Shown: positions 29,239 through 43,346 of the stretch, one piece after another
Layout of the letters: every line of letters begins with the position of its first letter
Numbering within the stretch: the first letter of the stretch is position 1
Origin: Campylobacterales bacterium
GTDB lineage: Bacteria; Campylobacterota; Campylobacteria; Campylobacterales; QNZT01
NCBI GenBank assembly: GCA_024278835.1
Contig: JAJRSK010000055.1
Location: forward strand, 1-63,517
Length of the DNA stretch: 63,517 nt
Direction of reading: 5' to 3'
Translations under genes and position numbers: made by a program
The notes under the pieces: model-generated
What the model was told of the DNA's origin: nothing
Databases searched by the model: none
Seen by the model: only the letters and a program-made list of their open reading frames with translations

Positions 29239-30517
29239 TACTCACCTCCCAGTAATGTATCTACATCATAGTCACAAGAATCAGCTTTTATTTTTGATCT
29301 ATCAATACCATACACACCGCCACTCAATGCTTGATTATAATCAGAATAAGCACTGGCTCTAGTTTTTGTGTTATACATATTATTTTCTGTAAAAGCAATT
29401 GTATTTCTTAACGCAGAAGATGAAAAAACTTTTTTACGTTTTAAATAAAATAAACAATGACTATGTCTATTATTTTTTTTCTGCATCTCATCAGCATTAC
29501 CAATTGGATTTTTTAGTATCTCTTGAGCTATTTTTGCATCTATTAACATATACTCAATTTTTACCTTAGTTTTCTAAGTCTTAATAATCTTTCGTTCAAC
29601 ATCATCCCTAACCCCATTATTATTGCTGTCTATCCCAAGAAGCGTAGAGTTATTAAGTGTTTCATCTGGCTCAGGCGGAAGCACATAACCATTTATAACT
29701 TCCTCTTTTGCTGTTATAGTTGCTTTAATCTCTTGTGAGACTTTCCCATGATACTCAGCTTGAACAAGTGTTTCTCCAGCTTTGAGTGCTTTTAAGTTAC
29801 CATCTGCATCTATTGATACAAGTGTTGCATCACCTATAATCCAGTTTATATCTTTTGTGATATCTTCTGTTGTTCCATCTTTATATATAGCTTGTAGAGT
29901 TAGTTTTGTACTTTCTTCCTCTTTTAGATTTATATCATTTTGTGAAAGGGTGATACTCTCTATGTTGTTTTTTGAGACTTCAAATCTATAACTTATCTTT
30001 TTGATTTTTGTACCGTCTTGGGTTTTTAGTCCTTTTACTGTTACTTGGTAGTAACCCGGACTTAGTTTTTTATGGGGGTTAAAGAGTAGGACATCTCTCT
30101 TTTTTAAGTATTTTACTTTTCCTTTAATATCTCTTTTTTTACAGTTTCTCTTTTTTTGGTATCTAAACACTTCTCTAGCACATTGGATGCATTCTCTTTT
30201 TAGGTGTTTATTCTTTTTGTAGCGTTGTTTACACTTTTGGATGTTTTTATCTCTTCTTTGTTTGATGACTGCTTTTCTCTCCTGTTTACACCCTAAGTAT
30301 TTTAGTTTGATACTCTTTTTTATACTTTTCTGTTTGAGTTTTTTATCGAAGGTGATTTTGATATTTGCCATTCTTTTTACGGTATCTTCTTCTGGGGCTG
30401 GGGAGAAGATGCTTAGCACCTTTTGATTCGTTCCTTTGGACTTATCTATGTCTATCTCTTTGGCTATCATGATAGTGCTTAGGCTTATCATGATAATGCT
30501 GTTAGTAATTTTCTCAC
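29238..30517 (-). pseudogene. Secreted BIG2-domain protein, broken
   Basis: The main frame (30491-29574) holds a Lys/Arg-rich N-terminal part with several cysteines and an Ig-like BIG2 domain (SITLSQNDINLKEEESTKL to ITAKEE). It then has the C-terminal mark GIDSNNNGVRDDVER and stops at a TAG (29574-29576). The frame remains open without a break into the next 103-residue stretch (YDVDTLLGGE end at 29238), so the TAG looks premature. A GTG at 30517 with AGGA upstream starts a signal-peptide-like MRKLLTALS in another frame, so the N-terminus is also shifted. The neighbouring hydrolase pseudogene begins in its stop (TAATG), so the two formed one operon. Confidence 0.75.
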
Positions 30518-30635
30518 TCTTTTTCCTTTGGTTTTTATAGTAAATCGTATTTTACCTGCCAATTGTTGCCTTATTGTGTCATTTGATAAAATATTTATGA
30601 CTTAGTTTACTTTTAGGGGGAGTGTTATGAAAAGT

Positions 30636-40265: not shown

Positions 40266-41280
40266 TCAATATATGCAAGAGTGGCTTTATGCAAAGGATG
40301 GGTATTATGCCTCGTTTCGGGCTATTGGTAAGGGTGGAGACTTTTATACGGCGGTGAGTTCTAGTATGTTTTTTGGTGGGAGTATCGCTAAGCGTTTTAT
40401 CGCAAGCGTGGAGGAGGGATTTTTACCCTCTGATACCACTATCATAGAAGTGGGCGCGCATCAAGGCTATATGTTAGCAGATATCGTGCAATTTATCTAT
40501 ACCTTGAAGCCTTCACTCCTTCAAACACTCTCCTTTGTGATAATAGAACCCCAAAAAGAAAACAGAGAAGCGCAGATTGCTTACTTTCAAGAGTCCTTTG
40601 GGGATTTGGTGACGCTTACACATGTGGATACTTTTGATGCGCTCTCTTTGGAGAGTGCCTTTATCGTTGCCAATGAAATATTCGATGCTTTTTCTTGTGA
40701 ACTTATCAAAGAAGATACGATGCTTTATATGCAAGAGGGTGTACCGAGATTTGGGGAGCAAGATGAAATAACTAAGCGCTTAGCTCAAAAGTATGGTATC
40801 AAAAAGGGAGAACTCTCTGTAGGTTTTGAATCTTTTGCAGCGTCTATGGCAAAGGCGATTAAGAAGTTTGAGTTTGTGAGCTTTGATTATGGTGATAAAG
40901 AGAAGCGGACAGATTACTCTATACGTATCTATCATAAACACCAGAGTTATCCATTTTTTGCCTTGACTGACTTTGTCAAAGATGAAAATGAGAAGCCAAA
41001 AGATGTCTCTTTAGCATCACTTTTTAAAAAGAGCGATATCACCTATGATGTGAACTTTACCCATCTCATTGATGCCTTTGAGGGTGCTGGCGTGCGATGT
41101 GAAAGCTACAAAACACAACTTGCTTTGTTGGTGGAGTTTGGTATCATTGAATTACTGGATATGCTTTTACAAAACAGCGATGAAAAAACCTACAATGCGG
41201 AGATGAATCGTGCTAAAGTGTTGATAGATCCGTCATTTATGGGGGAGCGTTTTAAAGGTGTGGTATTTAGAAAAGGGTAA
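40255..41280 (+). CDS. MidA/NDUFAF7-family SAM-dependent methyltransferase
   Basis: From the ATG at 40255 (overlapping tolC by 11 bases) the product is 341 residues. Family marks are GKGGDFYTAVSSSMFFGG, EVGAHQGYMLADI (SAM loop) and VANEIFDAFSCELI. Mitochondrial NDUFAF7 methylates an arginine of complex I during assembly; the bacterial target is unproven. It is the last gene before the sRNA-like region. Confidence 0.85.
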   Translation: MKFSQYMQEWLYAKDGYYASFRAIGKGGDFYTAVSSSMFFGGSIAKRFIASVEEGFLPSDTTIIEVGAHQGYMLADIVQFIYTLKPSLLQTLSFVIIEPQKENREAQIAYFQESFGDLVTLTHVDTFDALSLESAFIVANEIFDAFSCELIKEDTMLYMQEGVPRFGEQDEITKRLAQKYGIKKGELSVGFESFAASMAKAIKKFEFVSFDYGDKEKRTDYSIRIYHKHQSYPFFALTDFVKDENEKPKDVSLASLFKKSDITYDVNFTHLIDAFEGAGVRCESYKTQLALLVEFGIIELLDMLLQNSDEKTYNAEMNRAKVLIDPSFMGERFKGVVFRKG

Positions 41281-41284
41281 GTCA

Positions 41285-41340
41285 AGAAGTCAAGATAACG
41301 ACTTTGGGGGGGGATGAAGTACTTGTTATCTTAACTCTTA
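41285..41340 (-). ncRNA. Candidate C-rich-loop small RNA, copy 1
   Basis: On the minus strand a TATAAT -10 (41352-41347) with conserved TTGGGCAAC upstream (41371-41363) should start RNA near 41340. The RNA folds GTTAAGATAAC (41335-41325) with GTTATCTTGAC (41299-41289), 11 bp with one G-U. The loop contains CTTCATC then eight C. The same mismatch would be A-C on the plus strand, so the minus strand is favoured. The 3' end is not defined. Confidence 0.55.
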
Positions 41341-41469
41341 AGTAGTATTATATAGGTGAAATGTTGCCCAATTGTGGCATCAGTTATTAAACATAAAAAA
41401 ATAGAGTAATTTTTTATTTAATGTGTATATAAGTAACGTATAAGTTTTCTGGGTAATTTAGTAGTTTTG

Positions 41470-41529
41470 AAAGCGGGTTAAGACAACAATCTTACTAGGG
41501 GGGGATGAAGTACTTGCTGTCTTAACTCT
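41470..41529 (-). ncRNA. Candidate C-rich-loop small RNA, copy 2
   Basis: A second copy has the same -10 (41541-41536), TTGGGCAAC (41560-41552) and stem. GTTAAGACAGC (41526-41516) pairs with GTTGTCTTAAC (41487-41477), 11 bp with one G-U at a different place. One stem pair changes from T-A in copy 1 to C-G here, a compensatory change. The loop holds CTTCATC and seven C. A conserved block GTTACT...TACACAT also recurs about 85 bp upstream of each promoter, so the duplicated unit is ~170-185 bp. Confidence 0.55.
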
Positions 41530-41667
41530 GTAGATATTATATAGATAGAATGTTGCCCAATTGTGGTATTGCATAAAATTTGTTGATAATTGATATTTGT
41601 TTTCTTATGATGTGTAAATCAGTAACACTCTTTTGTTTTAGTATCATGATAGTGTGATATAAGTACT

Positions 41668-41690
41668 TAAAGTGGGGAAGCCCCACTTTA
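41668..41690. terminator. Hairpin downstream of the EAL-regulator gene
   Basis: TAAAGTGGGG (41668-41677) pairs with CCCCACTTTA (41681-41690) around AAG, a perfect 10-bp stem three bases after the minus-strand EAL gene ends. It probably terminates that operon and separates it from the small-RNA promoters. A TATCATGATA copy follows at 41642-41651. The rest of the 413-bp gap is AT-rich and holds the two RNA candidates. Confidence 0.7.
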
Positions 41691-41693
41691 TAT

Positions 41694-43346
41694 TTAGACT
41701 AGAGAACTCTTCTCAAATATTTTTTCTTCTAATAGTTCTTCTTCGGCTTTACCGATATAATAGCCTTGCGAATAGTCAATACCGATTTCATTTACGATAT
41801 CATAAATGACTTCATTTTCCACATATTCAGCGACTGTCATGGCGTCGATTCTATCGGCAAATATTTTAATCATCTCTACTGTTTTTCTGGCAAGTGGGGA
41901 TGTGGCGATATCTTGAATCAATGAACCATCTATCTTGATGATATTTGGCTCAAACTCCAAAATACGCATGAAATTTGAGTAGCCAGATCCAAAGTCATCG
42001 ATGGCTATCTTAACACCATAGCTTTTGGAAATGTCGATGAATTGTTTTACCACTTCATAATCTTCAGTATCTTTGTCTTCTAAAAGTTCAAAAATCATCT
42101 TATCTGCGACATCAGCATGCTCTTTAATGGTTTGTAGTAGATAAGCACTCATATGAGGGTCTTCTATATCCAAAGAAGAGAGGTTGATAGAAAATTCTTT
42201 ACCGGTCTCTTTAATTTTATCAAAAACTTTATCGATTAGTATTTTAGTCACCTGAGGATAAAGTTTTCCTTTTTTGGCAGTTTCAAGAAAAAATGGACCA
42301 GGATAGATAGTATTTCCCGCTTCATCTTTCATCCGTATGAGTGATTCATAGCGATGTATCTCTTTGGTTTTGTTGTTAAAAATAGGTTGATATTGTGGTG
42401 CAATGTTATTTTCTCTTAGGGCTATTTTAATCGTTTTTAACATAGAGAGGTTTCTACTCAACCCTTCACGCAATCCATCGATAACATCTTCTGATAAAAG
42501 ATACTCTTTTTTATGGGAAATGGCGGAACTAAGCACTTCATTGGCATCTTCATAGACACTATCTTTGCCTCTAGCAAAACTCATAGTCACATTGACATCA
42601 AAGTCATAACCATAAGATTCTATTTTTTGATGTTTGACTTTTTCTACAAAGTTAAAACAAAAATCTTCTACTGCTTCACGTTTTAGTCTGTCAGGACAAT
42701 GACGCAATATGGCATACTTACCACTAGAGATATGATAAATATCTTGGTGATTTAAACTTTTAAAAGCGTCTTTGAGGAGTTTGGTAAACTCTAGTTCCAA
42801 GAGTTCAACGATTTTATTACCATAAAAGTTTTCGTTGGTTTCAAAATTGTCAATTTTTACCAAAAAAAGTTCTTGTTCTTCCTCTCCTTCTGAGATATCT
42901 TTTAGTAGTGCCATTTTGTTTGGTAAAGAGGTGATGGTATTAATGGTGGCTAGAGAGTACTTTTGATTGAGTGAGGAAATTTGTGCATAAGATTTACATC
43001 TGGCTTTGAGCTCTGTTTTGTCAAAAGGTTTTGAGATAAAGTCATTGACACCTGCCTCTAATGCATGAATCTTGTCTTCTTTGTTTTCAAGTGAGGTAAT
43101 CATCAAGATAGGGGTTCTTTGAATAGATTCAATTTCCCGTATCTTTTTCGTGGCTTCAAAACCATTCATCTTGGGCATCATAGCATCCATCAGAATGACA
43201 TCAGGATGATGCTCTTTTGCGTTTTCTATGGCTTCTAGTCCATCAGAAGCTTCTATAAACGTATAGTTTTCATTTTTAAGGGATAGTTTGATGGTCATTC
43301 TATTGACTGAGACATCATCCACTATTAATATTTTTCCACTAGGCAT
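41694..43346 (-). CDS. Response regulator with degenerate GGDEF and EAL domains
   Basis: The 550-residue protein has a receiver domain (phospho-acceptor D54 in VILMDAMMPKMNG), a GGDEF-like middle without the GG(D/E)EF signature, and an EAL c-di-GMP phosphodiesterase domain. The EAL motif reads YESLIRM, so ESL replaces E(A/V)L; NLSS, IDDFGSGYSN, KIDGSLI and EYVENE are present, so activity is plausible. It is third in an operon with kinase and Hpt genes (8-base overlap). Confidence 0.87.
   Translation of the reverse strand: MPSGKILIVDDVSVNRMTIKLSLKNENYTFIEASDGLEAIENAKEHHPDVILMDAMMPKMNGFEATKKIREIESIQRTPILMITSLENKEDKIHALEAGVNDFISKPFDKTELKARCKSYAQISSLNQKYSLATINTITSLPNKMALLKDISEGEEEQELFLVKIDNFETNENFYGNKIVELLELEFTKLLKDAFKSLNHQDIYHISSGKYAILRHCPDRLKREAVEDFCFNFVEKVKHQKIESYGYDFDVNVTMSFARGKDSVYEDANEVLSSAISHKKEYLLSEDVIDGLREGLSRNLSMLKTIKIALRENNIAPQYQPIFNNKTKEIHRYESLIRMKDEAGNTIYPGPFFLETAKKGKLYPQVTKILIDKVFDKIKETGKEFSINLSSLDIEDPHMSAYLLQTIKEHADVADKMIFELLEDKDTEDYEVVKQFIDISKSYGVKIAIDDFGSGYSNFMRILEFEPNIIKIDGSLIQDIATSPLARKTVEMIKIFADRIDAMTVAEYVENEVIYDIVNEIGIDYSQGYYIGKAEEELLEEKIFEKSSLV

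Follow-up and report, generated by a model that had tools for sequence, protein, structure and literature searches.

The region between a methyltransferase gene and an EAL-domain gene probably contains two paralogous small RNA (sRNA) genes on the minus strand, as predicted from the letters of the window, that is, the whole stretch of 63,517 nucleotides that was analysed. Each predicted RNA carries a hairpin whose loop consists of CUUCAUC followed by a run of C residues, and we lean towards the view that the two are twin antisense sRNAs that would act like CJnc190 of Campylobacter jejuni, with the loop occluding the SD or start codon of G-rich mRNAs. Twin minus-strand small RNAs had already been proposed here in an initial annotation, and the proposal is supported by the pair changes in the stem and by a minus-strand folding score of z about -4.1.

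Organization of the twin units

The intergenic region is bounded by a convergent gene for a SAM-dependent methyltransferase (PF02636; 40240-41280, plus strand) and a gene for a response regulator with an EAL domain (41694-43346, minus strand). It holds two copies of one minus-strand unit, whose cores are located at 41378-41292 (copy A) and 41567-41476 (copy B). The initial annotation had described two repeats of about 170-185 bp, each with a promoter-like block, TATAAT, an 11-bp stem and a loop of CTTCATC plus C8 or C7. All of these elements are present and the two-repeat layout stands; the start-to-start distance is slightly larger, at 189-191 bp.

Read along the minus strand, the unit begins with an upstream block, GTTACT(T/G)AT(A/T)TACACAT, which is the only part of the unit that the initial annotation lacked, and continues with about 40 bp of diverged A+T-rich DNA, then CCACAATTGGGCAACATT, then TATATAAT, and finally the 11-bp stem with its CUUCAUC loop, extended by C8 in copy A and by C7 in copy B. 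Common to both units are a conserved block of 20 bp, the -10 box TATAAT and the 11-bp stem. The upstream block (GTTACTTATATACACAT at 41421-41437 in copy A and GTTACTGATTTACACAT at 41610-41626 in copy B, both on the minus strand) stands in register in the two copies, some 59 bp upstream, and agrees at 16 of 19 bases, a level reached by none of 2000 shuffles.

The two cores are identical at 75 of 84 aligned bases (89%), whereas downstream of the stem the similarity of the copies falls to the level of shuffled sequences. Conservation of the core next to a diverged flank suggests selection on the core. When CAAGTACTTCATCCCCCC is searched for in the window with up to three mismatches, it is found only at the two copies, where 0.03 matches are expected. 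Between the EAL gene and the sRNAs there is in addition a 10-bp G+C-rich hairpin at 41668-41690 (z -4.2 and -3.6), a probable two-way terminator.

As a separate observation, the window is rich in the palindrome TATCATGATA, which occurs 34 times in 63.5 kb (one per 1.9 kb; 0.17 expected from shuffles), in genic and intergenic DNA, for example at 1829, 9507, 30465, 30486, 41642 and 57723. Other palindromes of like composition occur in the window 0-1 times. The element recalls what we take to be comparable cases, the highly iterated palindromes such as HIP1.

Hairpins and strand assignment

The predicted 5' part of the transcript of copy A (41292-41344, minus strand) forms the stem GUUAAGAUAAC/GUUAUCUUGAC around the C8 loop CUUCAUCCCCCCCC (z -4.13), and that of copy B (41476-41533, minus strand) forms the stem GUUAAGACAGC/GUUGUCUUAAC around the C7 loop CUUCAUCCCCCCC (z -4.14). 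In a minus-strand transcript both copies form the complete set of 11 pairs: eight are invariant, one changes in a compensatory manner from T-A to C-G, and two are changed on one side only. The one-sided changes give G-U pairs on the minus strand and would be A-C mismatches in a plus-strand transcript. The compensatory pair and the minus-only G-U pairs, which had been put forward as the evidence that picks the transcribed strand, were thus both recovered. Note that this covariation is between two paralogues of one genome, because no homologue was found outside it.

Folding of the minus strand gives z = -4.1 for each copy, a value that none of 200 shuffles reaches, and folding of the plus strand gives -0.6 and -0.95. 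This comparison is not a clean one, since the G run stabilises the plus-strand shuffles and so accounts for part of the weak plus-strand scores; the pair changes are therefore the better evidence of strand. As for the transcript ends, no intrinsic terminator was found in 41100-41800 and neither stem is followed by a U run, and no strong terminator was found on the plus strand from 41280 to 41668.

Promoter block and direct-repeat box

The TTGGGCAAC block, earlier described as promoter-like, does not correspond to a -35 box; it makes up one half of an 11-bp direct repeat of the form GCnACAnTT-NN-GCnACAnTT. In copy A this box reads GCCACAATT-GG-GCAACATTT (41359-41378, minus strand; no mismatch to GCNACANTTNNGCNACANTT) and ends 6 bp before the -10 box TATAAT at 41347-41352; in copy B the repeat search gives ACCACAATT-GG-GCAACATTC (41548-41567, minus strand), with TATAAT at 41536-41541. 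Both -10 boxes score 6/6 at offset 6. The genes present and the style of the promoters suggest that the genome under study belongs to a relative of Campylobacter (Campylobacterota). In Campylobacter, sigma-70 promoters lack a -35 and have gnTAnaAT as their -10 (PMC3847290); conservation of a block at the -35 position thus points to a regulator, and the direct repeat is probably a regulator site.

A genome search for GCNACANTT-NN-GCNACANTT with up to two mismatches returned 23 matches, which fall in ten non-coding places when neighbouring matches in one C54 intergenic region are counted as one; about eight of the non-coding sites lie outside the twin pair. At six of the ten, a -10 sequence scoring at least 4/6 is placed exactly 6 bp past the repeat (TATAAT, TATAAT, TATACT, TATACT, TAAAAT and TAAACT), and five of these score at least 5/6, as against none of 18 coding control sites with a -10 scoring 5/6 at that distance. 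The genes with a box include those for a Big_2-domain protein, a DUF2202 lipoprotein and a 69-aa protein, and a surface-protein operon. The box of the Big_2-domain protein gene (29574-30491) is in the window, at 30561-30580 on the minus strand, with a TAAAAT -10 at the 6-bp spacing.

Repeats of 11-bp period that stand about one helical turn from the -10 are characteristic of OmpR-family regulators, and the arrangement of OmpR/PhoB-type promoters, 11-bp direct repeats at a fixed distance from the -10, is what is found at six of the ten non-coding sites. The PhoP box is a repeat of hexamers with 5 nt between them (PMC3335776). Boxes of the PhoP/PhoB type resemble the one described here in consisting of direct repeats with an 11-bp period, one helical turn, and in overlapping the -35 position, but the repeated sequence is a different one, here GCnACAnTT.

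Two further observations may be added. The product of 29574-30491 and that of L139 are paralogous secreted proteins with a KEID-KSKGTNQ motif, and C-rich stretches (CACTCCCCC; C7) lie upstream of their genes. At G000:C54:43264-43316 (L134, L190) there are about five 11-bp repeats, GGCAACAATTG twice and then AAGCACATTTT, GGTGACAATTC and AGCTACAATTG, between a gene for a TPR-type protein and a gene with a G8 tract in a short frame (C54:43588), which is a candidate for phase variation.

Candidate targets

The candidate antisense seeds are the loop sequences ACUUCAUCCCCCCCC in copy A (41306-41320, minus strand) and ACUUCAUCCCCCCC in copy B (41498-41511, minus strand), both complementary to predicted target sites. 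The initial annotation had named GGGGATGAAG as the literal target. This motif is not enriched in the genome, where it has 13 sites, two of them the sRNAs themselves, against 16 for the reversed control. Outside the sRNAs, a single one of the 11 sites coincides with a start codon, in a gene for a GGDEF-domain response regulator, and in the sister genome no GGGGATGAAG site has such a position; the motif was therefore rejected. The more general claim, that the loop is complementary to a ribosome site plus start codon, fared better, being supported by GGCGGGAGAUGAAGUAC, the best-scoring of 140 sampled start regions, and by GGGGGGAUGAA, a site linked to a box.

Among the eight non-coding box sites other than the sRNAs, two have a perfect complement of the loop of 10 or 11 nt within 200 nt downstream, and both complements are at the ribosome site. 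The first is at G000:C54 near 51,790, where a box without mismatch (GCAACATTTCGGCAACATTT) precedes the leader GGCGGGAGATGAAGTAC, and GATGAAGTAC covers the start of a gene for a protein with a signal peptide, the first gene in the surface-protein operon. The second is at G000:C28 near 45,830, where a box is followed by GGGGGGATGAA, with GGGGGGAUGAA, at the SD of a gene whose 629-aa product weakly matches a Cache domain. Judged by these sequences, the first gene of the C54 operon, which carries GGCGGGAGAUGAAGUAC, and the C28 gene for the Cache-like protein are the best-supported predicted targets. The predicted duplex energies are -27.3 and -23 to -24 kcal/mol. The -10 sequences of these two genes depart from the 6-bp spacing, with offsets of 4 and 8, and transcription of the second (L200) might start inside the G run.

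At the other non-coding box sites the complement of the loop is up to 6 nt long, and at eleven coding control sites it is 8 nt at most. In 172 kb of DNA from the same genome, a 200-nt stretch contains a match of at least 10 with a frequency of 0.0035, or about 0.0012 when both targets and the GGDEF site, which had been selected by pattern, are left out. The probability of two or more such matches in ten or twenty sites is roughly 1e-4 to 2e-3, in a test that is post hoc. The 140 sampled start regions contain 5 strong partners of the loop, against a mean of 8.6 for shuffled loops, so that the real loop shows no excess. Since the test is post hoc and the result across start regions is null, the evidence supports two targets and not a general rule.

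Distribution of the unit

The initial annotation had suggested a covariance-model search of related genomes as a check. Such a search, with a model of the two copies (R1), found only these two and no homologue among 22 family genomes and 399 order genomes, and as far as can be seen from these sequences the unit would be lineage-specific. The result holds for the family and the order rather than for the genus, because the only sister species examined (G001) has an assembly gap exactly at the locus: the assembly breaks inside both flanking genes, at codon 321 of the methyltransferase gene and codon 500 of the EAL gene. At locus L087 of G011, which belongs to a related genus, the two genes almost adjoin, leaving no room for the unit. 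Among the 4227 families of Rfam 15, none matched any part of the window at or above its gathering score, and the only matches were chance ones with E up to 5.

Wider searches gave several candidates that were rejected. The exact 17-mer AAGTACTTCATCCCCCC has 12 matches in 85,000 genomes, and these look like chance, since none has a flanking stem or promoter. A related pattern has 48 matches in viral contigs, none with a matching stem (the longest chance stem is 9 bp), and no match was found in plasmids and phages. Two genomes from a different family gave weak covariance-model matches (25-27 bits), located between nrdA and nrdB, which have in common CCACAATTG / ACACAATTG, TACAATACTACTTA and a hairpin with a C-rich loop; they do not preserve the modelled stem, and the score is at the chance level for a scan of 400 genomes. 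These intergenic regions (L004 and L005) contain two consecutive hairpins with the C-rich loops UAAUCCCCAAU and AUGUCCCCC, together with the TACAATACTACTTA motif, which resembles the sRNA promoter, and they may represent an unrelated conserved RNA. In the genome under study, a third hairpin, with the 11-bp stem AGAGAGACUAA/UUGGUCUCUUU and a loop containing a C9 run, lies upstream of an MscS-like gene (L140, G000:C15:866-874; L189), between that gene and a PemK-like toxin-type gene, both called by eye; it is not homologous to the twin pair.

Proposed mechanism and alternative explanations

According to the proposed mechanism, each sRNA gene would be transcribed from a promoter in which the 11-bp direct-repeat regulator box replaces the -35. 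The short RNA would present the CUUCAUC-C7/8 loop in its 5' hairpin, and in the cell this loop would pair with mRNAs encoded in trans, at their G-rich ribosome sites and start codons, and block translation. Because the box is also upstream of both best targets, sRNA and target may answer to one signal, in which case the regulator, the sRNAs and the targets would be arranged in a feed-forward loop. We offer as a tentative extension that a single response regulator, acting through the 11-bp box, drives both the C-loop sRNAs and the mRNAs with G-rich ribosome sites that they silence, giving a feed-forward brake on the cell surface whose strength is tuned by the length of the C run. C8 and C7 are two alleles within one assembly, and phase variation by the C run is a guess from these two.

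Several other explanations have to be weighed. The twin sRNAs may be real and yet act on a 5' leader through its homopolymer G tract, with the length of the tract tuning the effect. RepG provides a precedent (PMC8295292), and the G7-AU leader located 40 nt upstream of a gene for a response regulator (G000:C65:56242) would form nine contiguous pairs with the loop (-20.5 kcal/mol). However, the invariant CUUCAU part of the loop would be mostly idle at that site, and G/C tracts of at least 7 (25 seven-mers were counted) are, by a rough estimate, about as common as base composition predicts, so that one in a leader is unsurprising; we regard this explanation as unlikely. The hairpins might instead act in cis or as an antisense pair: read-through from the methyltransferase gene as far as the strong hairpin at 41668-41690 would make a G-rich 3' UTR that is fully complementary to both sRNAs, with mutual neutralisation. 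The lack of a strong plus-strand terminator between 41280 and 41668 agrees with this, and an antisense antagonist is known in the CJnc180/CJnc190 pair (PMC8687705). We think it quite unlikely; by itself it leaves the conserved loop and the box-linked target complements unexplained, and it is compatible with trans-acting sRNAs.

The unit might also have arisen by a recent duplication without function, its hairpin being due to chance. Its presence in a single genome is consistent with this, but a neutral duplication of 190 bp would diverge evenly, which is not what the 89% identity of the core beside a flank at shuffle level indicates, and the box is common to other promoters; we find such an origin very improbable. 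We give still less credence to a DNA element or a short plus-strand ORF, GGGGGGG-ATG AAG TAC TTG TTA/CTG TCT TAA (MKYLLS), as the conserved entity. The same six-codon frame is present in both copies and the codon that differs is synonymous, but the G run abuts the ATG and leaves no usable SD spacing, the differences in the stem keep pairing only on the minus strand, and the promoter-like block points to that strand as well. The longest minus-strand frame is itself absent from copy A. Antisense sRNAs that would act at ribosome sites and start codons remain our preferred explanation of the twin pair.

Comparison with known systems

C-rich sRNA loops acting on G-rich ribosome sites are proven in a few pathogens (RepG, CJnc190). 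The general type is known in related bacteria; the twin pair and its proposed circuit are new. If the proposal is true, a lineage-specific pair whose promoter box is common to its likely targets would suggest that this mode of control has originated repeatedly. The pair provides two named candidate target genes, and the box shared by sRNAs and likely targets is the part most worth attention.

RepG of Helicobacter pylori, a stand-alone gene, uses its C/U-rich terminator loop to recognise a leader that contains a homopolymer G repeat (PMC8295292). The twin genes likewise stand alone and have a C/U-rich loop for a G-rich sequence, but here the loop belongs to a 5' hairpin without a terminator and includes an anti-start-codon part, so that the binding loop is not that of an intrinsic terminator. 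The likeness to RepG seen in the initial annotation accordingly holds for the C-rich loop and not for the terminator loop, and CJnc190 is the closer system. Paralogous sRNAs that act as a pair are also described for the siblings NgncR_162/163 of Neisseria (PMC9973317), which the twin genes resemble in this paired arrangement.

In C. jejuni, experiments have shown that CJnc190 pairs through a C/U-rich loop with the G-rich RBS and start codon of ptmG and represses translation; RNase III generates it from longer precursors, and CJnc180 is encoded opposite it (PMC8687705). Plus-strand read-through from the methyltransferase gene, which would be antisense to both sRNAs, might correspond to CJnc180. 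The twin genes differ from CJnc190 in being two tandem paralogues, each with its own box-controlled promoter, and they share with it a predicted short RNA whose C-rich loop is complementary to a G-rich RBS and start codon, in the present case by sequence, through perfect complements of 10 and 11 nt.
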